From Agromyces tardus (GTDB lineage Bacteria > Actinomycetota > Actinomycetes > Actinomycetales > Microbacteriaceae): 64,000 nt of DNA. The first letter of the stretch is position 1. Each line of letters opens with the position of its first letter. A program made the translations under genes and the position numbers. Of the stretch, positions 41,265-57,300 are shown piece after piece. The notes beneath the pieces are model-generated. The model ran no database searches. It worked only from the letters and a program-made list of their open reading frames with translations, and was not told where the DNA came from. Location: assembly GCF_003710805.1 (NCBI RefSeq), contig NZ_RHHB01000008.1, positions 1-64,000 on the forward strand. Reading direction: 5' to 3'.

Positions 41265-44075
<2,811 letters not shown>

Positions 44076-44205
44076 GATGTCCTCTCCTTCGCGGATGCCG
44101 CCGACAACCGGGGCGGCACTTGAACCCATTCGTCAGACACGGGGCCGTCGCTGCAAGGGTAACCGAAGCCACCTGCGACGGACAGCCTCCGCACCGGGTG
44201 CGGAT

Positions 44206-44225
44206 TTATCTCGACGTCGAGATAA
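44206..44225. promoter_or_regulatory. Perfect 20-bp palindrome, probable operator of acnA
   Basis: TTATCTCGAC/GTCGAGATAA is a perfect inverted repeat of two 10-bp arms without spacer, between DUF3159 and acnA. On the minus strand TAGAGT directly precedes it, and TAAATC directly overlaps its far end. A bound protein would therefore cover the acnA transcription start. The protein is not identifiable here. Confidence 0.7.
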
Positions 44226-44230
44226 CTCTA

Positions 44231-45040
44231 TCACTCGCGGCGGCGCTCGGCTGCGGGGTACACGGCGCGCACCAGCAGCCACGAGAACACGAGGGCGAGC
44301 GCGTAGAGCGGCACCCCCATGAGGAGCCGCGTGGCGCCCAGCGCCTCGACGTTCCCGGCGAAGTAGAAGGGCAACTGCACCGCGAGACGCGCGACGAACA
44401 GCCCGAGCCAGATGAGGGTGAGCAGCTGCATCGCACGGTACTTGCGGCGGTCGCGCTTCCATGCGGTGCCGTCGCCCATGAGGAACCCGACGACGAGCCC
44501 GATCAGGGGCCAGCCGACGAGCAGCGACACGAGCATCGCCGTGCCGTAGGCGGCATTGGTGTAGAAGCCGAGCACGTAGTTGTCCTCCGCGCGCCCCGTC
44601 CAGAGCGCGAGGGCAGCGGATGCCGCGACGCCGATCAGTCCCGCGATGGCCTGTGTCGGCTGGCTCCGCGCCGCGAGCCGTACGACCGTGAACACGACGG
44701 CGAGCCCGAGCGAGGCGACGAGCGCCCAGACGAGCTCACGCGTGAACGTGTAGACGAGCAGGAACACGACGCCGGGCACGATCGCCTCGGCGAGCCCGCG
44801 GATTCCGCCCAGTGCCGCGAGGAGGTCGCGACCGCTCAGCGCCTCGTCTCGCGCGAGGCTGCCCAGCCCCGCTCGCTCGGCGGCGGCCGCGAGCTGTCGC
44901 CCGAGGTCCGCGGCCTGGTCGGGCGCCTCCGAATGCGGCTCGCTGCCGGCGGCCTCGCCGGATGCGGGCAGGTCGACCGCGTCCGGGTCACCGGGCACGA
45001 CGGGATCGCGCTCCGCGTCACGCGGCTCCGCGTCGGACAT
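44231..45040 (-). CDS. DUF3159 family membrane protein
   Basis: The 269-residue protein has a disordered acidic N-terminus (1-60), an amphipathic segment, then six helices from about 95 onward (AIVPGVVFLLVYTF, LVWALVASLGLAVVFTVV, AIAGLIGVAASAALALW, AMLVSLLVGWPLIGLVVGFL and two more). KRDRRKYRAMQLLTLIWLGLFVARLAVQLPFY is typical of DUF3159. Function unknown. It follows DUF3710 by 8 nt in the dut-DUF3710-DUF3159 group. Confidence 0.92.
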   Translation of the reverse strand: MSDAEPRDAERDPVVPGDPDAVDLPASGEAAGSEPHSEAPDQAADLGRQLAAAAERAGLGSLARDEALSGRDLLAALGGIRGLAEAIVPGVVFLLVYTFTRELVWALVASLGLAVVFTVVRLAARSQPTQAIAGLIGVAASAALALWTGRAEDNYVLGFYTNAAYGTAMLVSLLVGWPLIGLVVGFLMGDGTAWKRDRRKYRAMQLLTLIWLGLFVARLAVQLPFYFAGNVEALGATRLLMGVPLYALALVFSWLLVRAVYPAAERRRE

Positions 45041-45048
45041 CCGCACGC

Positions 45049-45669
45049 CTAGGCGACGGGTCCGCCGGCGGAGGTCGCCGGCATCCGGAGCGGAATCAGG
45101 TCGCGCGGCGGCATCGGGGTGGCACCGCGCACCACGACGATGGAACGGAACAGGTCCTCGACCTGCTCGGCCGCCTTGGGATCGACGGCGGCCTCGCCCG
45201 CGATGACGCCGCGCAGGAACCAGCGCGGGCCGTCGACGCCGATGAAGCGGGCGAGGCGCATCTGGCCCGGGGTGCCGTCGGCGGTCGCGACCGGGATCTG
45301 CGCGAGCAGCTCGGGTCCGAACGCTCCCTCGCGCACCGTGGTGGTGCCGCCCTGGCGCGCGATCTGGTCGGCGATCTGGGCGCGGATCTCGTGCCAGAGG
45401 CCGCTCGAGCGGGGAGCCGCGAACGGCTGCACCTGCAGCGTGGAGTTGGCGTAGTCGAGTCCGATCGCCACGACGCGCTTCGTGCCCTCCTCGACCTCGA
45501 GGCGCAGGTGCAGGCCCTCCCGCGGGAGCACCTTCACTCCGCCGAGGTCGACGTAGGGACGCACCGGGTTCGCCTCGGACTCGTCGAGCGGCCCGTTCGC
45601 CGCACGGTCGGCCGGAGCCGACTTGGGGTGGTCGACGGGGGTGTCGTCGATGTTCTCGATGTCGCTCAC
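45049..45669 (-). CDS. DUF3710 family protein
   Basis: The 206-residue protein has an acidic leader followed by [65 protein letters not shown], the DUF3710 core, and ends IPLRMP. Function unknown; it always travels with dut in Actinobacteria. It starts at GTG overlapping the dut stop by 4 nt (GTGA). Confidence 0.93.
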
Positions 45670-46127
45670 GCGTGCACTCCTGACTTGTGTCCTTCACCGA
45701 ATCCGGTGGAACCGAATCCCCCCTCGCCGCGCTGGCTGCCCGGAAGTCGTTCGACCTCGACGAAGCGCGCACGGCTGACCGGCATCACGACCAGCTGCGC
45801 GATGCGATCGCCCGCCTCGATGCGGTACGGCTCGGTCGCGTCGGTGTTGAGGAGCGCGACCTTGATCTCGCCGCGATAGCCCGCGTCGACGGTGCCCGGT
45901 GCGTTCACGATCGTGAGGCCGTGCTTGAAGGCGAGCCCCGACCGCGGGACGACGAAAGCGACGTAGCCGTCGGGCAGCGCGATCGCGACGCCCGTGCCGA
46001 CGGTGGCGCGCTGGCCCGGCTGCAGTTCGACCGCCTCGGCGGCGTGCAGGTCCGCGCCCGCATCGCCCGGGTGGGCGTAGGCGGGGAGGCGGTCTGCCGT
46101 GATCAGGACGTCGACGGATTCGGTCAC
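45666..46127 (-). CDS. dut: dUTP diphosphatase
   Basis: The 153-residue trimeric-type dUTPase carries motif 1 [11 protein letters not shown], motif 2 [13 protein letters not shown], motif 3 [16 protein letters not shown], motif 4 [12 protein letters not shown] and motif 5 [11 protein letters not shown]. It removes dUTP and supplies dUMP. The start is GTG 46127; the longer ORF upstream is Arg-rich shadow. TACCCT (46134-46139) ends 6 nt before the GTG, the leaderless pattern. Confidence 0.96.
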
Positions 46128-46165
46128 TGTTCGAGGGTAGTGCAGAAGTCTGGTCTGATAGATCC

Positions 46166-46630
46166 ATGCCCGACTACCGCGAGCGGCTGTGGCCGTCGCC
46201 CTGGATCTACATCTCGAGCCTGCTGCTGGTTCCCGCCAGCATCCTCGTGCTCGCTCCCGTCTCACTCCCCGCCGGCATCGTGACCGGGGTGGTCCTCTAC
46301 CTCGCCGTGGTGGGCTCGCTGTCGCTCACCGCTCCGGTCATCGAGGTCGTCGACGGGCGCCTACGTGCCGGCCGGGCGCAGATCCCGCTCGAGCAGACGG
46401 GAGCGGCCTACGGCGCCGACGGCGACGCCGCGCGCATCGAGCGCGGCACCGGCCTCGACGTGCGCGCGTTCCTCGTGATCCGGGGCTGGGTCCACGGCGT
46501 CACGCGCATTCCGGTCACGGACCCGGCGGATCCCACGCCCTACTGGCTCGTGTCGAGCCGCCGGCCCAACGAATTGGCCGCCGCGATCAACGGATCGCGA
46601 CGGCCTCGTGGTGTGGAGCGTGCGGACTAG
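46166..46630 (+). CDS. DUF3093 family membrane protein
   Basis: The 154-residue protein begins [49 protein letters not shown], two adjacent helices with the short conserved [10 protein letters not shown] opening. A small cytoplasmic domain follows with [46 protein letters not shown]. Function unknown. It is divergent from dut and convergent (4-nt overlap) with DUF4193. Confidence 0.93.
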
Positions 46631-46920
46631 GCCGCGCACTCCAGGCAGATCGGACCGAGCTTGGTCTCGTGGTCGATCTGCGAGCGGTGCTTCACGAGGA
46701 AGCAGTTCACACAGGTGAACTCGTCCGCCTGGGGCGGAAGCACGACGACGTCGAGTTCGACGTCGGAGAGATCAGCGCCGGCCAGGTCGAAGCTGCCGGG
46801 GTTGTCGGCGTCCTCGACGTCGACGACACCGGACATCTTGTCGGGGACGCGCTCCTTGAGGGCCTCGATCGACTCGGAGTCGTCTTCGGTCTTCCGCGGT
46901 GCGTCGTAATCCGTTGCCAT
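46627..46920 (-). CDS. DUF4193 family protein, probable zinc ribbon
   Basis: The 97-residue protein has an acidic N-terminal half (ATDYDAPRKTEDDSESIEALKERVPD) and a C-terminal pair of C-x2-C motifs (FTCVNCFLVKHRSQI and GPICLECA), suggesting one bound zinc. Function unknown; it is near-universal in Actinobacteria. It is divergent from sepH across a less GC-rich 195-nt gap. Confidence 0.93.
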   Translation of the reverse strand: MATDYDAPRKTEDDSESIEALKERVPDKMSGVVDVEDADNPGSFDLAGADLSDVELDVVVLPPQADEFTCVNCFLVKHRSQIDHETKLGPICLECAA

Positions 46921-47115
46921 TCCCATCCATTTCCTCATTGCCGAAGATTCGGCGGGCACAGTCTGCACTAAAACAAGTGCGTTAGCAAACCAATTGGCCG
47001 GCGCCGTCGAACCTGTGGAATGCACAACTTCCGGCACGCCCGGCCTATTCCCGGCGGCACCGAAGACGGCATGGCATCCTTGGGCGGAGACGAAGGCACG
47101 GAAGGGCTTCTCGCG
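46921..47115. promoter_or_regulatory. DUF4193 / sepH intergenic region
   Basis: This is the least GC-rich stretch nearby. It contains GCACT-AAAACA-AGTGC, an inverted repeat with 5-bp arms at about 46973-46988, and the palindrome CCAATTGG near 46991. On the minus strand TTTTAGT could be a -10 for DUF4193. GAAGGG at 47101-47106 serves as the sepH ribosome binding site. Confidence 0.4.
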
Positions 47116-48216
47116 ATGCAGGAACTGAAGGTAATCGGAGTCGAGAACGGCGCGTTGCTCGCGGCGTCCGAGGACGGCGCACGCTTCCGGATCGAGATCG
47201 ACGAGGTGCTCCAGTCGCGCATCCGCCAGGCTCAGCCAGAGCAGCACACCGGTCCGAGGCTGTCGCCACGCGAGGTGCAGTCCCACATCCGCTCCGGGCT
47301 GTCCGCCGAGGACGTCGCCGAACTCACGGGCGCGTCCGTCGACTACATCCGCCGATTCGAGGGTCCGGTGCTCGCCGAGCGCGAGCACGTGATCACCTCG
47401 GCGCTCGCGGTGCCCGTGCACGTCCCCGCCGACATGGAGGCGGGCGATGAGCCCACCTCGTTCGGCACGGTCGTGCGCGAGCGCCTCGCGAAACTCGGCG
47501 CCCACGGGGAGCGCTGGGCGAGCTGGAAGGACGAGGAGCGCGGCTGGATCGTCAAGCTCGAGTTCACGGCCGACGGCATCGACCACGACGCCAGATGGGG
47601 CTTCGAGCCGCGCAAGCAGTCGTTGCATCCGCAGAACTCCGAGGCCATGACGCTGTCGCAGCACGGCGAGGTCAAGGGCGGACTCATCCCCCGGCTGCGC
47701 GCCGTCGGCCCCGAATCCGAGGAGTCCCGCTTCGACAGCGGGGCGTTCACCTTCGACGAGCCCGAGGGCGACGACAACGACACCGCCCCGCAGATCGAGG
47801 TGCTGCCCTACGCCCGCAGCACTCCCTCGGTCTCGAGCCCTGCCGCTGCGCGGGCCGCGATCAAGCGGGCCGACGAACCCGCGCCCTCGACCGGCGAGAC
47901 CGCCGACCTGCTCGAGGCGCTCCGGCGGCGCCGCGGCGAGCGGGAGGCCGCCACCGGCGAGCAGGAGCGGCTCCCCCAGCCCACCGCGCTGAATCCGGTG
48001 CTGCGCCATGAGCCCAGCCCTCCCCCTCCGGTTCCCACCGCCGCCGCGCCCGAACCGCAGCCGACCGCCGAGGAGCCGCCCGGCTCCGCCGCACGCGCAC
48101 TCTGGGGCGGCAAGTCCGCGACCGGGCCGGTGAGCCGTGCCAAGAAGGGCCGCGCGTCGATGCCGAGCTGGGATGAGATCGTCTTCGGCGCCCGCACCGA
48201 CGACGACCTGGCCTGA
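47116..48216 (+). CDS. sepH: Septation protein SepH (DUF3071)
   Basis: The 366-residue protein has the SepH N-terminal domain with a helix-turn-helix-like motif (RLSPREVQSHIRSGLSAEDVAELTGASVDYIRRFEGPVLAEREHVI, about 50-95). A linker then leads to a conserved domain (GERWASWKDEERGWIVKLEFTADGIDHDARWGFEPRKQSLHPQN). The C-terminal third is disordered, Pro/Glu-rich, and ends in a basic patch plus MPSWDEIVFGARTDDD, a short conserved tail. In Streptomyces SepH binds FtsZ and stimulates its assembly. The start at 47116 leaves GAAGGG 9 nt upstream. Confidence 0.94.
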   Translation: MQELKVIGVENGALLAASEDGARFRIEIDEVLQSRIRQAQPEQHTGPRLSPREVQSHIRSGLSAEDVAELTGASVDYIRRFEGPVLAEREHVITSALAVPVHVPADMEAGDEPTSFGTVVRERLAKLGAHGERWASWKDEERGWIVKLEFTADGIDHDARWGFEPRKQSLHPQNSEAMTLSQHGEVKGGLIPRLRAVGPESEESRFDSGAFTFDEPEGDDNDTAPQIEVLPYARSTPSVSSPAAARAAIKRADEPAPSTGETADLLEALRRRRGEREAATGEQERLPQPTALNPVLRHEPSPPPPVPTAAAPEPQPTAEEPPGSAARALWGGKSATGPVSRAKKGRASMPSWDEIVFGARTDDDLA

Positions 48217-48287
48217 CACCGCCGTTCCGCCTCGCCGCCGCGCAGTGCGTCGCGCGGCGGTTCGTCGCGCCCCTGGCCACCTCACGA

Positions 48288-48314
48288 GAGCGGATGCCTC
48301 CGCGGCATCCGCTC
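48288..48314 (+). terminator. sepH terminator made of an inverted repeat-motif pair
   Basis: GAGCGGATGCC (48288-48298) pairs perfectly with GGCATCCGCTC (48304-48314) around a 5-nt loop, about 70 nt past the sepH stop. The right arm overlaps a full motif copy (48302-48310). Confidence 0.65.
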
Positions 48315-48350
48315 GGAGGATCGCCCCTCGTCCGGCGTGCCCGCGGGTGC

Positions 48351-48371
48351 TACCATCGAACATATCTTCGA
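48351..48371 (+). promoter_or_regulatory. LexA (SOS) box with adjoining -10
   Basis: TCGAAC-ATAT-CTTCGA (48356-48371) differs by one base from the actinobacterial LexA consensus TCGAAC-N4-GTTCGA. TACCAT (48351-48356) just before it fits a -10, so the box would cover the start of transcription. GGAGG and the ATG at 48389 follow 18 nt on. Confidence 0.65.
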
Positions 48372-48388
48372 ATGTCGGTGGAGGTCGG

Positions 48389-48670
48389 ATGCTGCGCACT
48401 CAGGAGCCGGTCGAGGTCTGGACAGGCGAGGCCGGCGAGCCGCTGCGCCTCGTGTGGCGGGCGCGCCGCTTCCGCGTGAACGACACCCCCACCCCGCTCG
48501 TGGCGCCGTGCGACTGGTGGGAGCCGTTCGCCGACTCCGGCGCACCGGGCGGCCCGCCGCTCGAGATCACCGGTTGGCGATTCCAGGCGGTCACGGGCGA
48601 CGGAGAGGCCCACGTCTTCGACGTCGCCCATGACGGCACGCACTGGCAGCTGCTGCGCGTCTTCGACTGA
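48389..48670 (+). CDS. DUF6504-like small protein, predicted SOS-regulated
   Basis: The 93-residue protein reads as one small beta domain: QEPVEVWTGEAGEPLRLVWRARRFRVNDTPTPLVAPCDWWEPF...LEITGWRFQAVTGDGEAHVFDVAHDGTHWQLLRVFD. The PVEVW...P..L.WR.R.F.V...DWW...W...A.......Y/F.L......W.L..V.D layout matches DUF6504, a family I recall beside imuB/dnaE2 mutagenesis genes in Actinobacteria. Here no polymerase is adjacent: clpX lies convergent. GGAGG 4 nt before the ATG and the LexA box upstream support the start. Function unknown; a DNA-damage role is inferred. Confidence 0.8.
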   Translation: MLRTQEPVEVWTGEAGEPLRLVWRARRFRVNDTPTPLVAPCDWWEPFADSGAPGGPPLEITGWRFQAVTGDGEAHVFDVAHDGTHWQLLRVFD

Positions 48671-48715
48671 AGCAGGCCCGCACGTCAGGCCTGCATCGCG
48701 TTCTGCGCGAGGAGG

Positions 48716-49993
48716 CTAGGCCGACTTCTCGGCGCGGCGCGGCTTGTGCGGCACGATCGTCGGCGCCGCGTTCTCGAGCACCGACTCCTTCGTGACGACC
48801 ACGCGGGCGACGCCGGTGGTGGAGGGGACCTCGAACATGATGGGCCCGAGCACTTCCTCCATGATCGCCCGCAGGCCGCGCGCGCCCGTCTGCCGCAGCA
48901 CGGCGAGGTCGGCGATCGACTCCAGCGCGGCGTGCTCGAAGTCGAGCTGCACGCCGTCGAGCTCGAACATGCGCTGATACTGCTTCACGAGCGCGTTGCG
49001 CGGCTCGGTGAGGATCTCCATGAGCGCGTGCTGGTCGAGCGGCGTCACGGTCGCCACGACGGGAAGCCGTCCGATGAACTCGGGGATGAGGCCGAACTTG
49101 TGCAGGTCCTCGGGGAGCACCTCGCTGAACAGCTCCGCTTCGTCCTGCTTGGAGTGCAGCGGTGCGCCGAACCCGATGCCCCGCTTGCCGGCCCGCGACG
49201 AGATGATCTCCTCGAGCCCGGCGAACGCCCCGGCCACGATGAACAGCACGTTCGTCGTGTCGATCTGGATGAACTCCTGGTGCGGGTGCTTGCGGCCGCC
49301 CTGCGGCGGCACGGATGCGACGGTGCCCTCGAGGATCTTCAGCAGCGCCTGCTGCACGCCCTCACCCGACACGTCCCGCGTGATCGACGGGTTCTCGGCT
49401 TTGCGGGCGATCTTGTCGATCTCGTCGATGTAGATGATGCCGGTCTCGGCGCGCTTCACGTCGTAGTCGGCAGCCTGGATGAGCTTCAGGAGGATGTTCT
49501 CGACGTCTTCGCCGACGTAGCCGGCTTCGGTCAGCGCCGTGGCATCCGCCACCGCGAAGGGCACGTTGAGCTGCTTCGCGAGGGTCTGCGCAAGGTACGT
49601 CTTGCCGCAGCCCGTGGGGCCGATGAGGAGGATGTTCGACTTCGCGATCTCGACGTCGTCGTCGGCACGGTCGGCGGAGGTGATCGTGGCCCGGGCGCGC
49701 ACGCGCTTGTAGTGGTTGTAGACGGCGACGGCGAGGGCGCGCTTCGCGGCCTCCTGGCCGATGACGTACTCCTCGAGGAACGCGAAGATCTCCTTCGGCT
49801 TCGGGAGCTCGAACTCCCCCGCCTCGGCCTCGCCCGCCTCGGCGAGGCGCTCCTCGATGATCTCGTTGCAGAGCTCGACGCATTCGTCGCAGATGTAGAC
49901 GCCGGGTCCGGCGATGAGCTGCTGCACCTGCTTCTGGCTCTTGCCGCAGAAGGAGCACTTCAACAGGTCTGCGCTCTCCCCGATGCGTGCCAT
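48716..49993 (-). CDS. clpX: ATP-dependent Clp protease ATP-binding subunit ClpX
   Basis: The 425-residue unfoldase has the N-terminal zinc-binding domain ([30 protein letters not shown]), Walker [13 protein letters not shown], Walker [12 protein letters not shown], the pore loop region, and RGIGFG, the IGF-type loop that docks ClpP. It delivers substrates to ClpP1P2. I start at [11 protein letters not shown] (49993), the conserved family start, with AAAGGGAGGG upstream. A terminator and promoter separate it from clpP1-clpP2. Confidence 0.97.
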
Positions 49994-50022
49994 CGCACCC
50001 TCCCTTTCACGCGTCTGCTCCG

Positions 50023-50028
50023 AGCCTA
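50023..50028 (-). promoter_or_regulatory. -10 box of clpX
   Basis: The minus strand reads TAGGCT, about 29 nt upstream of the clpX ATG with the ribosome binding site between. No clear -35. It would allow clpX to be expressed apart from clpP1P2. Confidence 0.45.
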
Positions 50029-50083
50029 GCCCGACCGCATGGGGGTGGGGCCCATACGCCACGGTTTGGCGGAAACGAAATGA

Positions 50084-50118
50084 CGAAGGGCGGATGCGGC
50101 ATCCGCACCCGCCCTTCG
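50084..50118 (-). terminator. clpP1-clpP2 terminator
   Basis: CGAAGGGCGG (50084-50093) pairs with CCGCCCTTCG (50109-50118). After one mismatch TGCGG (50095-50099) pairs with CCGCA (50103-50107), leaving a 3-nt loop. It begins 9 nt after the clpP2 stop and contains a repeat-motif copy (50096-50104). Confidence 0.75.
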
Positions 50119-50126
50119 GGGCCCGA

Positions 50127-50795
50127 TCAGCGCGCCAGCGACGGCAGCTGCTTGCGCGACGAGAGCACCTGGTCGATGAGGCCGTACTCGAGCGCCTCGT
50201 TCGCCGACAGGATCTTGTCGCGGTCGATGTCGGTGTTGACCTGCTCCTGCGTGCGGTTGGAGTGGCGCGCGAGCGTCTCCTCCAGCCACGAGCGCATGCG
50301 CAGGATCTCGGCCGCCTGGATCTCGATGTCGGATGCCTGGCCGTGCCCGGCCTCGCCCATCGCGGGCTGGTGGATCAGCACGCGGGCGTTCGGAAGCGCG
50401 AGGCGACGGCCGGGCGCGCCCGCCGCGGCGATGACCGCCGCAGCCGACGCAGCCTGTCCGAGCACCACGGTCTGGATCTGCGGCCGGATGTACTGCATCG
50501 TGTCGTAGATCGCCGTCATGGCCGTGAAGGAACCGCCGGGCGAGTTGATGTACATCATGATGTCGCGGTCGGGGTCCATCGACTCGAGCACGAGGAGCTG
50601 GGCCATGATGTCGTCGGCCGACGCATCGTCGACCTGCACGCCGAGGAAGATGATGCGGTCCTCGAAGAGCTTCGCGTACGGGTCCTGGCGCTTGTAGCCG
50701 TAGGCCGTGCGCTCCTCGAAGCTCGGCAGGATGTACCGGGAGCCTGGAGCCTGGACACCGCTGAACGCGGTGCCGCCGAAAGCAGGGGTGTTCAT
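50127..50795 (-). CDS. clpP2: ATP-dependent Clp protease proteolytic subunit ClpP2
   Basis: The 222-residue serine protease has the catalytic Ser in [16 protein letters not shown], the His in [20 protein letters not shown], and the Asp in [23 protein letters not shown]. Its N-terminus is extended, as in other actinobacterial ClpP2. It forms a mixed tetradecamer with ClpP1 and docks ClpX or ClpC. It starts 26 nt after clpP1. Confidence 0.96.
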
Positions 50796-50821
50796 TCGCT
50801 CGTTCTCTCTTCTCTCGGTGC

Positions 50822-51409
50822 CTACGCCTGGTCGGTTCCGCCGCCGCCGGACACGTCGAGCGCGGACTCGCGGATGTGGTCGACGAAGCCGTACTCGAGC
50901 GCCTCCTGCGCGTTGAACCAGCGGTCGCGGTCGCCGTCGCGGTTGATCTGCTCGACCGACTTGCCGGTCTGCGCCGCCGTGATCTCGGCGAGGCGCTTCT
51001 TCATGTCGAGGATCAGCTGGGCCTGCGTCTGGATGTCGCTCGACGTGCCGCCGAATCCGCCGTGCGGCTGGTGGAGCAGCACGCGCGCGTTGGGCGTGAT
51101 GTAGCGCTTGCCCTTGGTGCCCGCGGTGAGCAGCAGCTGGCCCATGGATGCGGCCATGCCGATGCCGACCGTGACGATGTCGTTGGGCACGAACTGCATC
51201 GTGTCGTAGATCGCCATGCCGGCCGTGATCGAGCCGCCGGGCGAGTTGATGTAGAGGTAGATGTCCTTCTTCGGGTCCTCGGCGGCGAGGAGCAGCAGCT
51301 TCGCCGCGATCTCATTGGCGTTGTCGTCGCGCACCTCGGATCCCAGCCAGATGATGCGGTCCTTCAGCAGTCGATCGAAAACACTGGGTCCCAGTGTCGG
51401 TTCGGCCAT
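50822..51409 (-). CDS. clpP1: ATP-dependent Clp protease proteolytic subunit ClpP1
   Basis: The 195-residue subunit has [10 protein letters not shown], the catalytic Ser in [13 protein letters not shown], the His in [12 protein letters not shown], and the Asp in [24 protein letters not shown] start at [18 protein letters not shown] (51409), the family start. The minus strand has TAGATT (51442-51447) as a possible -10. ClpP1P2 is normally essential in Actinobacteria. Confidence 0.96.
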
Positions 51410-51481
51410 GTGTCGCTCCGTTTCGGTTGTCGCTTGTCTCGAATCTATCCGGTGCAACGCGCGCGATCCGGGCTGTTCGCC

Positions 51482-51964
51482 CTAGGCGGATGCCGCGAGC
51501 TCCGCTGCGTACGCGGCGAGCGAAACGCGGTAGCGGGGCAGGTGCGGCGCGAGCGCGCCGAGGGCCTCGGATGCCGCGCGGCGGGCGTCGCCGGCCGAGA
51601 CCCGCGCGAGCGCGCGGAACGCGACGACGGCGTCGCGCAGTTCCCCGGCCTCGGGCTCGATCGCGTCGAGCAGCGCGATGGACTCGAGCGGACGACCCAG
51701 GTTGCGCAGCGTCGAGGCCAGCTGCACGTGCGCCTGCACGCGTTCGGATCCCCCGAGGCCGTTCGCGAGGGCCGCGCGGTAGAGGGGTTCCGCTTCCTCC
51801 TCGAGGCCCGCGGAGTCGCGCGCGCCGGCCCGCTCGAAGAGGGCGAGCGGATCCGCCTCCGGCCGCTCGGCGGCGAGCGCGTCGATGCGGCGCACGACCT
51901 CGTCGTCGCCGAGCTCGTCCGTCGCCGCCCACACGGCGTGGACGCGCTCCTGCCAGTCGGTCAT
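51482..51964 (-). CDS. Tetratricopeptide-repeat protein
   Basis: The 160-residue all-helical protein has TPR-like units (DPLALFERAGARDSAGLEEEAEPLYRAALANGLGGSERVQAHVQLASTLRNLGRPLESIALLD) and no membrane segment. TPR proteins of this type bind partners rather than catalyse, and the partner is unknown. It lies upstream of clpP1 on the same strand, 72 nt apart, with a -10 candidate for clpP1 between them. Confidence 0.85.
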   Translation of the reverse strand: MTDWQERVHAVWAATDELGDDEVVRRIDALAAERPEADPLALFERAGARDSAGLEEEAEPLYRAALANGLGGSERVQAHVQLASTLRNLGRPLESIALLDAIEPEAGELRDAVVAFRALARVSAGDARRAASEALGALAPHLPRYRVSLAAYAAELAASA

Positions 51965-52126
51965 GCGGGTGTCCCTCCGGTCGTCCCTCGACGATATCGG
52001 GTGCGTCGCGCGGAGCCGCCGCCCGGTGGGCCGAAGGTCATGACCCCGCGGTCCGGCCCGCCCCTATCGTGTGGGGCACCACGCGGTGGTGGTGGCCCGA
52101 GGGTCCGGAAGGCGAGGCGGCGGCGC
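51965..52126. other. Intergenic region, divergent TPR / small membrane protein genes
   Basis: The 162-nt gap should hold both promoters. CTATCG (about 52063) and the GC-rich rest give no confident -10. I see no palindrome or conserved RNA. Confidence 0.3.
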
Positions 52127-52393
52127 ATGGCGGTGCAGGTGTTCCCGGCGAAGCGGCTGGGATGGTGGGGACTCGGCGTGACGCTGGCGTTCATCCTGCT
52201 GTTCGTCCTCAAGGTCGGCGTCGCGTTCCCGCTGCCGAGCCCGCTCATCTTCGGCGTCGGGGTGATCGGCGTGGTGCTGTCGATCTGGGCGGTCGTGCGC
52301 GGCGATCGATCCCTCGTGCTCATCATCCTGGCCGCCGTCGTCGCGGTGTTCGTGCTGTTCTTCGTGGGCGGCGAGCTGCTCTTCCCGCACTGA
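52127..52393 (+). CDS. Small membrane protein, three helices
   Basis: The 88-residue protein is almost entirely membrane-embedded: GWWGLGVTLAFILLFVLKVGVAF, LIFGVGVIGVVLSIWAVV and SLVLIILAAVVAVFVLFFVGGELLF, with short charged loops (RGDR). I recognise no functional family. Codon third positions are strongly G/C, as in true genes here. It is convergent with tig, sharing a terminator. The upstream longer ORF is a shadow of clpP1 and the TPR gene. Confidence 0.75.
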   Translation: MAVQVFPAKRLGWWGLGVTLAFILLFVLKVGVAFPLPSPLIFGVGVIGVVLSIWAVVRGDRSLVLIILAAVVAVFVLFFVGGELLFPH

Positions 52394-52413
52394 GCCGTCG
52401 CTCGCCGGGACGA

Positions 52414-52449
52414 CGAAGGGCCGGATGCGCTGCGGCATCCGGCCCTTCG
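52414..52449. terminator. Bidirectional terminator containing the repeat motif
   Basis: CGAAGGGCCGGATGC (52414-52428) pairs perfectly with GCATCCGGCCCTTCG (52435-52449) around a 6-nt loop. It lies between the convergent small membrane protein and tig genes. The right arm carries a motif copy (52432-52440). Confidence 0.85.
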
Positions 52450-52470
52450 CTCGACATCGTCGAGAGGTGA

Positions 52471-53931
52471 CTACTCTGCGTCGTCCGTCTTGGCGGCGCG
52501 CTTGCGGGCCGGCTTCTTCGGCTCCTCGGCGTCCGCCTCGTCGGCGGCAGCGTCGTCGGCCGCCTTCTTGGTCGTGCGCTTCTTCGGGGCCGGCTTCGCC
52601 TCGGCCTCGTCGGACGCGGCCTCCGCCTGCTCGGCCTCGGCTTCCGCCTCGTCGCCGACGGCGGTGAACTCCGAGAGGTCGACGGGATTGCCGGCGGCAT
52701 CCGTGACCTTGGCCTTGCCGAGTGCGATCGCGAGGGCCTTGTTGCGGGCGACCTCGCCGACCATGGCGGGGATCTGACCGTTCTGGCTCAGGATCTGCAC
52801 GAACTCGTTGGGGTCCATGCCGTACTGAGCGGCACCCTGCACGAGGTACTGGGTGAGCTCGTCCTGGCTGACCTGCACCTTCTCCGCCTCGGCGATCGCG
52901 TCGAGCACGATCTGGGTCTGGAACGCCTTGGTGCTCGACTCGGTCACCTCGGCGCGGTGCTCGTCGTCTTCGAGGCGGCCCTCGGACTCGAGGTGACGGT
53001 GCACCTCGTCCTCGATGACGCTGTCGGCGACCGGAACCTCGACGAGCTCGAGGAGCTTGTCGACGAGGAGGTCGCGGGCCTGGCTGCCCTGGCCGAACGA
53101 CTTGTTGCGGGCGACCTGCTCGGTGAGGCTGGCCGTGAGCTCGTCGAGGGTGTCGAACTCGCTCGCGATCTGCGCGAAGTCGTCGTCGGCCTCGGGGAGC
53201 TCGCGCTCCTTGACGGCCGTGACGGTGACGGTGATCTCGGCGGTCTCGCCCTCGTGGTCGCCGCCGAGCAGCTTCGACTCGAAGGTGGTGGTCTCGCCCG
53301 CGGTGAGCGAGTCGAGCGCCTCGTCGATGCCCTCGAGCAACTCGCCCGAGCCGAGCTCGTAGGAGATGCCGCTCGCGGTGTCGACCTCGGTGCCGTCGAT
53401 CACGGCGACGAGGTCGAGCGTGACGAAGTCGCCCGACTTCGCGGGGCGGTCGACCGTGATGAGCGTGCCGAAGCGGCTGCGCAGCCGCTCGAGCTCAGCG
53501 GTGACCTCGTCGTCGCCCACCTCGACCGAGTCGACGGTGATCTCGAGGCCGCGGTAGTCGGGGAGCTCGATCTCGGGACGCACGTCGACCTCGATCGCGA
53601 GGAGCAGGTCGCCCGAGAAGTCGGCCTCGTTCGGCCACTCGACGATGTCGGCGTTGGGGCGGCCGAGCGGGCGGAGCTCGTGCTCGGTGACCGCGGCGCG
53701 GTAGAAGCCGTCGAGGCCCTCGTTCACCGCGTGCTCGAGCACGGCGGCCTTGCCGACCCGCTGGTCGATGATGGGCGGCGGCACCTTGCCCTTGCGGAAG
53801 CCGGGCACGTTGATCTGCTCGGCGATGTGCTCGTAGGCATGGGCGATGCTGGGCTTCAGCTCCTCGGGCGTCACCGAGATGGTGAGCTTGGCGCGCGTGG
53901 GGCTCAGCTTCTCAACCGAAGTGGTCGGCAT
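52471..53931 (-). CDS. tig: Trigger factor
   Basis: The 486-residue ribosome-associated chaperone has the ribosome-docking signature [18 protein letters not shown] (about 42-59), an FKBP-like PPIase domain in the middle ([21 protein letters not shown]...[14 protein letters not shown]) and the helical C-terminal arms. It ends in a 60-residue tail of alternating acidic and Lys/Ala-rich stretches ([20 protein letters not shown]), an actinobacterial extension. It lies downstream of tRNA-Pro and upstream of the shared terminator. Confidence 0.97.
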
Positions 53932-53981
53932 GGGGAAGATCTCCTGTTGTGTGGAAAGTTCGTGTCGGATCTCACGACCCG

Positions 53982-54056
53982 TCGGGGCGACAGGATTCGA
54001 ACCTGCGACCTCCCGCTCCCAAAGCGGGCGCTCTAGCCAAGCTGAGCTACGCCCCG
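53982..54056 (-). tRNA. tRNA-Pro (anticodon TGG)
   Basis: Acceptor CGGGGCG/CGCCCCG, anticodon arm CCCGC-TTTGGGA-GCGGG and T-loop GGTTCGAATCC form a standard cloverleaf. CCA is not encoded. It lies 50 nt upstream of tig on the same strand. TAGACT (54130-54135, minus) is a possible -10. Confidence 0.96.
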
Positions 54057-54305
54057 AGTCGCTGACTCAACTCGTCAGCCCATCCGCGACGGCACGCCGA
54101 ACGCGCCGGAATACGGATGAACCCACGAAAGTCTACTGCACGGGCCGCACGCTCCCGGGCCGCCCCGGTGCGCCGGCGGATCCGACCCGATTCGGGCGCC
54201 TCCGCGGCGGTGCGCTCGGCTCGACCCGCCCGCAGGCCGACTGCGGGATCCGGCGACCCTGTGGAAATCCTGTACGGTCGCCGAACGGCATGCCAGAGTG
54301 AGCGC

Positions 54306-57300
54306 ATGCCAGAGACGACGCGACCCGGACCGTTCCCCAGGGACCCGCGAAGCTGGCCGACCGACCCCGCACAACTCGTCGACACGACCCTCTGCCCGTC
54401 CTGCTTCTCACGGCTCAGGAGCACCACGTGCGAGGTGTGCGGTCTGCAGCTCGCCGTGCCCGCGGCATCCGAACTGCTGGCCGCCTCGACACGGGTGTAC
54501 GAGGCGGAGCGCGGGCGCCAGGCCGTCATCGCGCGCATGCGGTCGGACCAGGCAGCCGCGTTCGAGGCCGCGGGCGCGGCAGCGTGGTGGTCGACGGCGC
54601 CCGCCAGGCCCCCGGTGCCGGCGGCTGCGGCACCGGCGGCACCGGTGGCCGGAGCTGCGCCCGTTGCCACGACGGCCGCACCGGTGGCGGCCCCCGCCGG
54701 CGGAGGAGCGCCGGGCGCTCCTCCGACCGTCGCCGCCGGCCCGCCGGCCCCGCGTCGCTCCGGCGTGCAGGTGCTCCTGCTCGCACTCGGGGTCGTGCTG
54801 CTCTCGGTCGCCGCGATCGTGTTCCTCTTCGTGGCCTACCTCGTGGCGAGCCTCGAGGTGCGTTCGATCATCATCGCGTCCGCGAGCGTGCTGGTGCTCG
54901 CGCTCGCGTGGTTCCTCCGGGCGCGTCGGCTCCCCGGCACCGCGGAGGGCGTGGCATCCGTCGCGGTGGTGCTGCTCCTGCTCGACGTGTACACCGTGCG
55001 CGCGAACGACGTCTTCGGCACGGGGTCGCTCCGAGTCTCGACGTACTGGGGTGCTGCACTGCTCGTCGTCGCGGGGCTGCTCGCCGCGTCCCGCCTCGTG
55101 AGCGGGGTCCGGGTGCCGGGCTTCGCGGCCGCCGGCATCACCCCGGTCGCGCTGTTCCTGCTCGCCGCGGGGCTCGTGTCCGAGTCCGACGTCCCGACCG
55201 GCGTGTGGCTCGGCTTCCTCGCCGCCGCGACCGCCGGCCTCGCCGCGCTGTTCGTGCGGCCCCGGGTCGAACGCACGGTGGTGCTCATCGAGTCGGGAGC
55301 CGCCGGCGCGCTCGCCTTCCTCACGGCGATCTGGGCGCTCCCCGACATCACCTGGAGTGCGACATGGGCCTTCGGCGCGGTCGCGGTGGTCTGGCTGCTG
55401 GCGGTGGCCGCACTGCGACTGCCGACCGCGCGCCTCCACCCGGCGTGGTCGCAGGTGGCCGCGGTCATCGCCGGCGCGAGCGCGGCGCTCGCCCCGACGC
55501 TCGGCGTGGCCGGCGAACTCGAGGCCGCCGACGCCGTCTGGATCGCTCCCGCTGCCGCGACCGCGGTCGCGTGCGTGCTCGCGGCATTCACGCTCCGACG
55601 CGGCATCCACGCCGACGCGCGCAACGCATTCCTCCCGGCCGCGGCCGTCGCCGTCCTCGCATCAGTGCCCGGCATCCAGCTCGGCGTCACCGCGATCGCC
55701 GGGCTGCTGTTCAAACGGTTCCTCGTCTGGGCGGTCCCCGGCGACGCGAATGTGAGCACGACCTCCTTCGACTCCGAGCCCGGGGTCGTGCTGACTCCGA
55801 TCGTGATGGCGATCGGGGCGGCGATCGCGCTGTCGTTCCTGCGTCGGCTTCGCACCCTCATGGCCCTCCCCCTGGGTTTCGCGCTGTTCACCGTCGTGGC
55901 GGCGAGCGGCATCGCATCGACCATCTCGGTGGCGGTCCTGATCCTGCTCGCGCTTGCGACCGGTGCCCTCGCCGTCGCCGCAACGCCCGTGTCCCGGCGT
56001 CTTCGTGGTTCCATCCCGACGCTCGCGGCGGCCGGGATGACCGCGGCCGCGATGACATGGGCGATCGCCCACGCGAGCACCGACATCTGGTGGTGGGCGG
56101 TCACCGCCGTCCTCCTGCTCTCGGTCGCGGGCCGCGTGCTCGCAGCGCGTGTCTGGTCCGCGGCCTCGGCGGGGGTCTTCGGCATCCTGCACCTCGTGGT
56201 GACGACCACCGTGTTCGCGATCACCATGGCGACACTGCCCGGCTGGGCGGATGCGGCGCACCACCCGTTCCCTGCGCCATGGGACTCCCCGTGGATGTGC
56301 GCCGGCACTGCGTGCGCGCTCGTCCTCGGCGGGCTCGCGTTCGCACCGCGGCTCGCGCGCGGCGACCGCGCTGCGCTGGTGGCGCCGCCGTTCGCCGCTG
56401 CGCTGATCGCCGCGACGGCGCTCGTCGTCGTGCCGACTCCCACGCTGGCCTGGGTTCCCGCGATGGTCCTTGCGATCGCAGCGGGACTGTGGCTCCGTCC
56501 GTCGGTGCCCGTCGAACCGCGAGTGGCCTTCGGCGCAGCGACTCCACTCGCCCTCGGCCTCGGCACCGCCGGCCTCGCGCACCAGTTCGCCGGGGCGCCC
56601 GTCGTCGCCCTCGGCCTCGCCGGGGCCGCGCTGGTGGGCGCGGGCCTCGCGCACGTCGTACGCCGGCTGGGCGCCGCGACGACGGCCGCCTGGAGCGCTG
56701 CGGTCGGGTTCGTCGCGGTGGTCGCCCTCGGGGTCGGCGTCGGCGTCGGCCCCGTCTACGCCGCCGAGCCGTGGCTCGTGCTCCTCGTCCTCACGCCCGT
56801 CCCCGTCATCCTCGCGGGCGTCAGCGGCGACCCGATCGGCGGCGATTCGCCGCTCCGCCATCTCTCGTGGCTCAGCCTCGCCCTCGCGGTCGCGACCGTG
56901 TGGACGTGGCTGGCCGGCGACGCCGTGACCGACGTCGAGGCCTATTCGCTGCCGCTCGCCGCTGCGCTCGCGATCGCGGGCGCGCTCATCACCTGGCGGC
57001 GCACCGCTGCCGCATCGACCGCCGCCGGCCGCACGACGCTCTTCGCGTCGGCTGCCGCCGTCGCCGTGCTCCCGAGCGTGGCTTCCTCGGCCGGATCCGA
57101 ACTCCGCACCCTCGTCCTCGTCTCGATCGGCGCGGTCGTCGTGATCGCCGGTCAGTTCCTTCCCGAGCGTTCGCGCGGCGTCCCGATCCGGCTGCTCGCC
57201 GTCGTCGCGGGATGGACCGCGGTCACCGGCGCAGCGCTCGTGCGCGGCACGGCGGTGGCGGCGGGCGAGCCCAGCGCGCTGATCCCCGAGTTCTGGCCCT

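Follow-up and report, generated by a model that had tools for sequence, protein, structure and literature searches.

Why should a gene for a small protein, situated between sepH and clpX and with no polymerase gene beside it, possess an SOS-type operator of its own? The gene in question is found in a 64,000-nucleotide stretch of the Agromyces tardus genome, which was analyzed as a whole and is referred to here as the window. It encodes a stand-alone ImuB-C/DUF6504-like protein of 93 amino acids (48389..48670, + strand; ATG at 48389, stop codon at 48668-48670) and is preceded by the sequence GGAGG, a probable ribosome-binding site (48380-48384, +). Further upstream are the predicted LexA (SOS) box TCGAACATATCTTCGA, that is, TCGAAC-ATAT-CTTCGA (48356-48371, +), which deviates from TCGAAC-N4-GTTCGA at one of the 12 bases specified (11/12), and a -10-like hexamer, TACCAT (48351-48356, +), whose last T is the first base of the box. 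The same-strand neighbor is sepH (47020..48216, +; start codon not fixed), identified by the NCBIfam model NF040712 (SepH) with 191.6 bits, and the convergent neighbor is an ORF (48716..50062, -) that, from sequence features, we take to be clpX. A perfect 11-bp hairpin without a T-run (48288..48314, +) lies between sepH and the LexA box and is a possible end of the sepH transcript; the whole stretch is unexceptional in this respect (z of -1.4). The sequence-only reading of this DNA had described a 93-residue gene behind a LexA box one base off the consensus, with TACCAT immediately before the box, and these elements were all confirmed at the coordinates given for them. Its statement that no polymerase is adjacent also holds, as a tblastn search of window positions 42001-55000 (E ≤ 1e-5) revealed no match to the strain's own DnaE2, to the C-terminal part of its ImuB, to the N-terminus of its ImuA', or to its three DinB-type proteins.

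The genome of this strain contains 66 sites with at most one mismatch to the LexA box in 4.06 Mb, as compared to 8 for the pattern read backwards. Single box matches therefore do occur elsewhere; however, the box of the window gene is conserved before its homologues. A box of at least 11/12 was found in 29 of the 30 best homologues and, when the 200 bases upstream were scored, in 75 of 90 places within the Microbacteriaceae, with 85 of the 90 reaching at least 10/12; the maximum for the pattern read backwards at the same 90 places was 9/12. The remaining four family places scored 9, 11, 11, and 12, and all 94 family homologues taken together include 78 with an upstream box of at least 11/12 and 88 with one of at least 10/12. 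Four of the six places with a box below 10/12 are in genomes that also harbor a boxed copy (G028, G055, G103, and G140). The named loci, a set that overlaps the family places, have a box of at least 11/12 in 46 and of at least 10/12 in 48 of 48 cases. Among 128 distinct upstream regions, all of them picked for a box of at least 10/12, 119 contain a TAnnnT hexamer at a position from -18 to +2 relative to the first base of the box, as compared to a mean of 20 and a maximum of 34 in shuffled regions. A chance box was rejected on the basis of the backwards-pattern and shuffled controls and of the conservation before homologues. As positive controls, in the same genome, imuA' and a SplB-like radical-SAM gene are each preceded by a box of 12/12, a uvrA-like gene by one of 11/12, and lexA by one of 10/12. 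lexA was recognized by a match to the LexA_DNA_bind profile (E = 1.8e-21, C8:50809-51000); the names imuA', uvrA, and SplB are presumed from position and sequence features. The window gene, with a predicted SOS-type operator at its promoter that is conserved in homologues, can thus be considered a candidate member of the LexA regulon. Two details of individual boxes were also observed. The perfect box of the SplB-like gene is located directly 5' of it, at C29:25771-25786, and the CTTCGA right half-site of the window box (48366-48371) is common to other Agromyces and Leifsonia flava (L173, L175, L176, L185, L186, L188, and L189). Because this variant recurs in several Agromyces and Leifsonia strains, the weaker box may be selected.

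The initial assignment of the protein to the DUF6504 type is supported by profile comparison, but the single sequence remains under the Pfam cut-off. In a Pfam-A scan (E up to 10), DUF6504 (PF20114) was the sole match of the window protein (E = 0.0025), and residues 4-92 were aligned to profile positions 6-102 of 103; the score of 18.5 bits is below the gathering cut-off of 24.2 bits. Of three boxed homologues of the window subgroup that were scanned, two had DUF6504 below the cut-off (17.7 bits each) and one was without it, and Pfam detected DUF6504 neither in the C-terminal part of the strain's own ImuB nor in a box-less homologue. One protein of type A, the sister group, passes the cut-off with 34 bits. 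Single hhalign comparisons were carried out with a window-subgroup profile of 72 members, from which the box-less second or third hits L109, L127, and L132 (G103, G028, and G055) were left out, these being retained in the above counts of 90 and 94 places. The window subgroup matched the type A proteins with an E value of 2.8e-16, and the C-terminus of a Shinella ImuB-like protein was matched by type A (2.1e-6) and by the ImuB C-termini of Microbacteriaceae (4.8e-5). Direct matches of the window subgroup had an E value of 0.0015 and a probability of 17% for the Shinella C-terminus and were weak for the Microbacteriaceae ImuB C-termini (E = 0.0011, probability of 20%), a value that none of 50 column-shuffled controls equaled (best 0.015); reversed controls in the hhalign comparisons gave 0.037 to 0.39. 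That the protein is unrelated was rejected on the strength of the type A match and the shuffled controls. The Shinella protein (507 amino acids) is encoded on a plasmid by the gene before an error-prone polymerase, and it contains an IMS domain (31-155) and a DUF6504 domain (426-505), the latter above the cut-off. No Pfam match was obtained for the gene before it or for a Y-family protein of a Microbacterium plasmid, and no imuB is annotated in a Gluconobacter plasmid region. Based on the profile chain that leads via type A to the Shinella C-terminus, DUF6504 is taken to be the published ImuB-C domain, and homology to the ImuB C-terminal domain places the window protein in the ImuB-C superfamily. 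The link between DUF6504 and ImuB/DnaE2 mutagenesis genes made in the sequence-only reading is right and goes deeper than proposed, since an ImuB-like protein of Shinella has DUF6504 as its C-terminal domain. Residues W86, R20, R64, and R90 are invariant in the 17 sequences of A1.

The AlphaFold2 model of the window protein (pLDDT of 91.7, pTM of 0.80) is all-beta, with seven strands and one short helix; the corresponding model of ImuB-C was poor (pLDDT of 59.8). A Foldseek search of the protein model against PDB and viral folds gave no match at E ≤ 0.001, which agrees with the statement in PMC12926913 that nothing structurally close to the ImuB-C barrel was identified in the PDB. The best VIA-align match (Z of 6.0) was to kinase chains over 52 residues and is taken as a common arrangement, and the best E value in a PDB sequence search was 0.52.

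A homologue was identified in 81 of 150 genomes of the family (E ≤ 0.001), at 94 places in all. Matches to dnaE2, imuA', and imuB are absent around the gene in 71 of these loci, a number of solo loci that is an upper bound because the stretches searched differ in length (approximately 7 to 15 kb in 20 loci, 1.5 kb to either side in 10, and, in the remainder, approximately 3.4 kb to either side unless the contig ended earlier). The 23 linked loci comprise 18 with dnaE2 only and 5 in an imuA'-imuB-dnaE2 neighborhood. In Agromyces, Leifsonia flava, Leifsonia sp. Leaf264, and Glaciibacter flavus, the gene is situated between sepH and clpX, with two further genes preceding clpX in Leifsonia flava (L050), and in Cryobacterium it follows sepH. 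At most other Leifsonia loci it is located, with its own box, upstream of imuA'-imuB-dnaE2; since a second perfect box precedes imuA' there, mostly with one recurrent gene between, the ImuB-C gene seems to be a separate unit even at these loci. The nearest named loci are those of Agromyces, with an identity of up to 72% (Agromyces ramosus), and the 91 pairs formed by the window gene and 13 Agromyces orthologues have a median dN/dS of 0.24, which points to purifying selection. Outside the family, dnaE2 is at most 1.5 kb away in 15 of the 18 loci examined. A box of at least 10/12 is present at 24 of 26 examined places, which were drawn from 31 (four were already in the set and one was without a locus) and cover 18 of the 19 non-family places. 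That the gene is not just an operon passenger, as the sequence-only reading had suggested, is supported by the predicted operator, which accompanies homologues at many different loci. A passenger of sepH or clpX was rejected because clpX runs towards the gene from the opposite strand, because a separate box and promoter hexamer precede the gene, and because homologues sit at other loci elsewhere. A phage gene was likewise rejected, as there was no match in 50,697 phage records (tblastn, E ≤ 0.01); two plasmid records contain a match to the window protein. That ImuB-C in Microbacteriaceae is mostly a detached gene behind a predicted LexA box is new here; the literature searched contained no account of such a one-gene LexA unit in this family, nor the name DUF6504.

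Several other features of these loci were noted. In 21 of the 94 family loci, for example L091/L169 on a Gryllotalpicola protaetiae plasmid, the ImuB-C-like gene has an SRAP (SOS response-associated peptidase) gene nearby; 12 of these 21 are without a dnaE2 or imu match, and one is the query's own locus. A gene for approximately 280 amino acids that starts near DRYG[TSA]DVLA and is presumably DUF3097-like recurs beside imu genes (L048 5915-6787; L203-L211 and L213), following dnaE2 in the window genome and separating the ImuB-C gene from imuA' in Leifsonia. The genomes G004, G035, G087, G110, G120, and G140 each have a pair of ImuB-C-like genes that differ in kind, and a box of at least 11/12 precedes 11 of these 12 genes.

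The search for imuB and dnaE2 that had been suggested for this genome located imuA'-imuB-dnaE2 elsewhere, so that the strain possesses, besides the window gene, an ImuB with a tail of its own. Contig C17 ends with imuA' and the first part of imuB, and contig C89 begins with the remainder of imuB and dnaE2; the imuB stop and the dnaE2 start are 17 bases apart, with no DUF6504 gene between, and the window gene is outside this operon. The parallel search for other DUF6504 copies, in which PF20114 was compared with the genome of the strain at E ≤ 0.001, yielded nothing, which reflects a limit of sensitivity because the window protein itself scores 0.0025. Across the family, a homologue was found in 80 of 135 genomes with a DnaE2 versus none of the 13 that have only one DnaE (Fisher p = 2e-5), and in 70 of 120 versus 0 of 5 hand-sorted genomes of about 2 Mb or more (p = 0.015), both p values being too small because related genomes are not independent. 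Genomes with two or more DnaE matches were counted as having a DnaE2; G038 and G099, with no DnaE match, were left out, and G081 and G101, with one match each, were put in the DnaE2 group because this match is of the DnaE2 type, as indicated by its position next to the ImuB-C gene or by an identity of 77% to the strain's own DnaE2. No homologue was detected in 50 of 106 ImuB-positive genomes, indicating that the mutasome does not require an ImuB-C-like gene.

For ImuB-C of other bacteria, the proposed role is to connect ImuB with DnaE2, the error-prone polymerase. The window gene would encode a free copy of this module, which corresponds to the C-terminal beta-barrel of ImuB. LexA bound to the box right after the -10 hexamer would repress the gene, and DNA damage, by RecA-driven LexA cleavage, would turn it on together with imuA'-imuB-dnaE2, which has a perfect box of its own elsewhere in the genome. 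The free module would then most likely dock in trans on DnaE2, for which the PHP domain is the predicted site, and may help to assemble or retarget the polymerase. On the homology, the operator sequence, the conserved independence of the gene, and the co-occurrence with DnaE2, as documented above by sequence comparison, it appears probable that the gene is an autonomous, SOS-controlled free ImuB-C module that acts in trans on DnaE2-type translesion synthesis. The retention of the same switch by most relatives suggests that the module is an independent component of the response to damage. A role in trans that is related to DnaE2 is favored by the co-occurrence, by the low dN/dS, and by published AlphaFold models in which M. 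tuberculosis ImuB-C is placed on the DnaE2 PHP domain (PMC12926913). Against this reading, a strain whose ImuB has its own tail does not obviously need a second ImuB-C copy. It can be suggested only tentatively that stand-alone ImuB-C is an SOS effector of general occurrence and with separate induction, so that a diffusible one-gene SOS adaptor sets DnaE2 activity independently of the ImuA'-ImuB operon, either by recruiting the polymerase without ImuB or by capping it, and that the ratio of free to ImuB-tethered module controls mutagenesis.

The coexistence of fused and free ImuB-C in one genome, with 59 of the up to 71 solo loci being in ImuB-positive genomes, would also fit a brake, namely, a free module that restricts mutagenesis through competition with the ImuB tail for DnaE2 (or ImuA'), in which case the SOS response would induce its own damper. 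The protein ends are alike in that all 29 readable ImuB tails (30 loci, one not parsed) terminate in RYD or KYD and many free modules terminate similarly, the window protein in VFD. However, this shared end is not strict, being YD or FD in 35 of 75 window-subgroup proteins, and the free module of other lineages is the ImuB-C beside dnaE2 (PMC12926913), which fits a positive role; a brake is judged to be unlikely. Little weight is given to a DnaE2-independent adaptor for damaged DNA or for another polymerase or repair factor, such as a DinB-type Pol IV or DnaE1. The strain has three further IMS-domain (DinB-type) genes besides imuB, and Aravind et al. 2013 (PMC3765255) reported that stand-alone ImuB-C accompanies DinB, Ku/ligase, and photolyase genes and proposed that it binds DNA, so that DnaE2 need not be the partner. 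The homologue is nevertheless missing from all 13 genomes with a single DnaE, and the stretches searched contained a DinB match in none of the solo loci (at most 71), whereas SRAP was found in some; in four imu loci, the DinB match may be due to imuB. It is highly improbable that the gene is a relic, left over by chance when an ancestral ImuB-C/DnaE2B pair lost its polymerase: its homologues outside the family are mostly beside DnaE2 and it stands alone in the window, but it is under purifying selection, and the operator, the promoter hexamer, and the place after sepH have been kept in Agromyces, Leifsonia flava, Glaciibacter flavus, and Cryobacterium.

The free module acting in trans on DnaE2 is the preferred reading. 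A one-gene, LexA-boxed ImuB-C present alongside imuA'-imuB-dnaE2 offers a clean genetic test of the action of ImuB-C itself, and the same set-up permits tests of how DnaE2-dependent mutagenesis is turned on or limited. Furthermore, the recognition of DUF6504 as ImuB-C provides a lead to the function of proteins annotated by that number alone.

To the Pfam family DUF6504 (PF20114), the window protein is related by a near full-length alignment and by profile homology, with the single sequence below the gathering cut-off. Stand-alone ImuB-C as an SOS-linked protein has already been published (PMC3765255, PMC6511836, PMC12926913), so that, of the proposal of a lone SOS-controlled member, the lone gene and its conserved predicted operator stand, but the stand-alone SOS-linked form as such was already in print. 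The stand-alone ImuB-C of Aravind et al. 2013 (PMC3765255) and Timinskas and Venclovas 2019 (PMC6511836) is likewise a small all-beta homologue of the ImuB tail with an SOS context and with SRAP neighbors at some loci, as here. The DnaE2B and ImuB-C pair of Actinobacteria (Arthrobacter alpinus type; PMC12926913) involves the same protein family, and dnaE2-linked loci of this type also occur in the family and order searched here; unlike in that pair, no dnaE2 adjoins the window gene, and the strain's own DnaE2 directly follows imuB. The ImuY-containing cassette has a similarly small and free ImuB-C in a LexA-controlled operon, but there it is inside the cassette, with the Y-family partner ImuY as a separate protein, whereas the window gene is outside. 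In the accounts consulted, the published stand-alone forms share an operon with genes for a polymerase, SRAP, or other repair factors; in contrast, the window gene is predicted to form a LexA-boxed unit by itself, and its genome encodes an ImuB with a tail as well.
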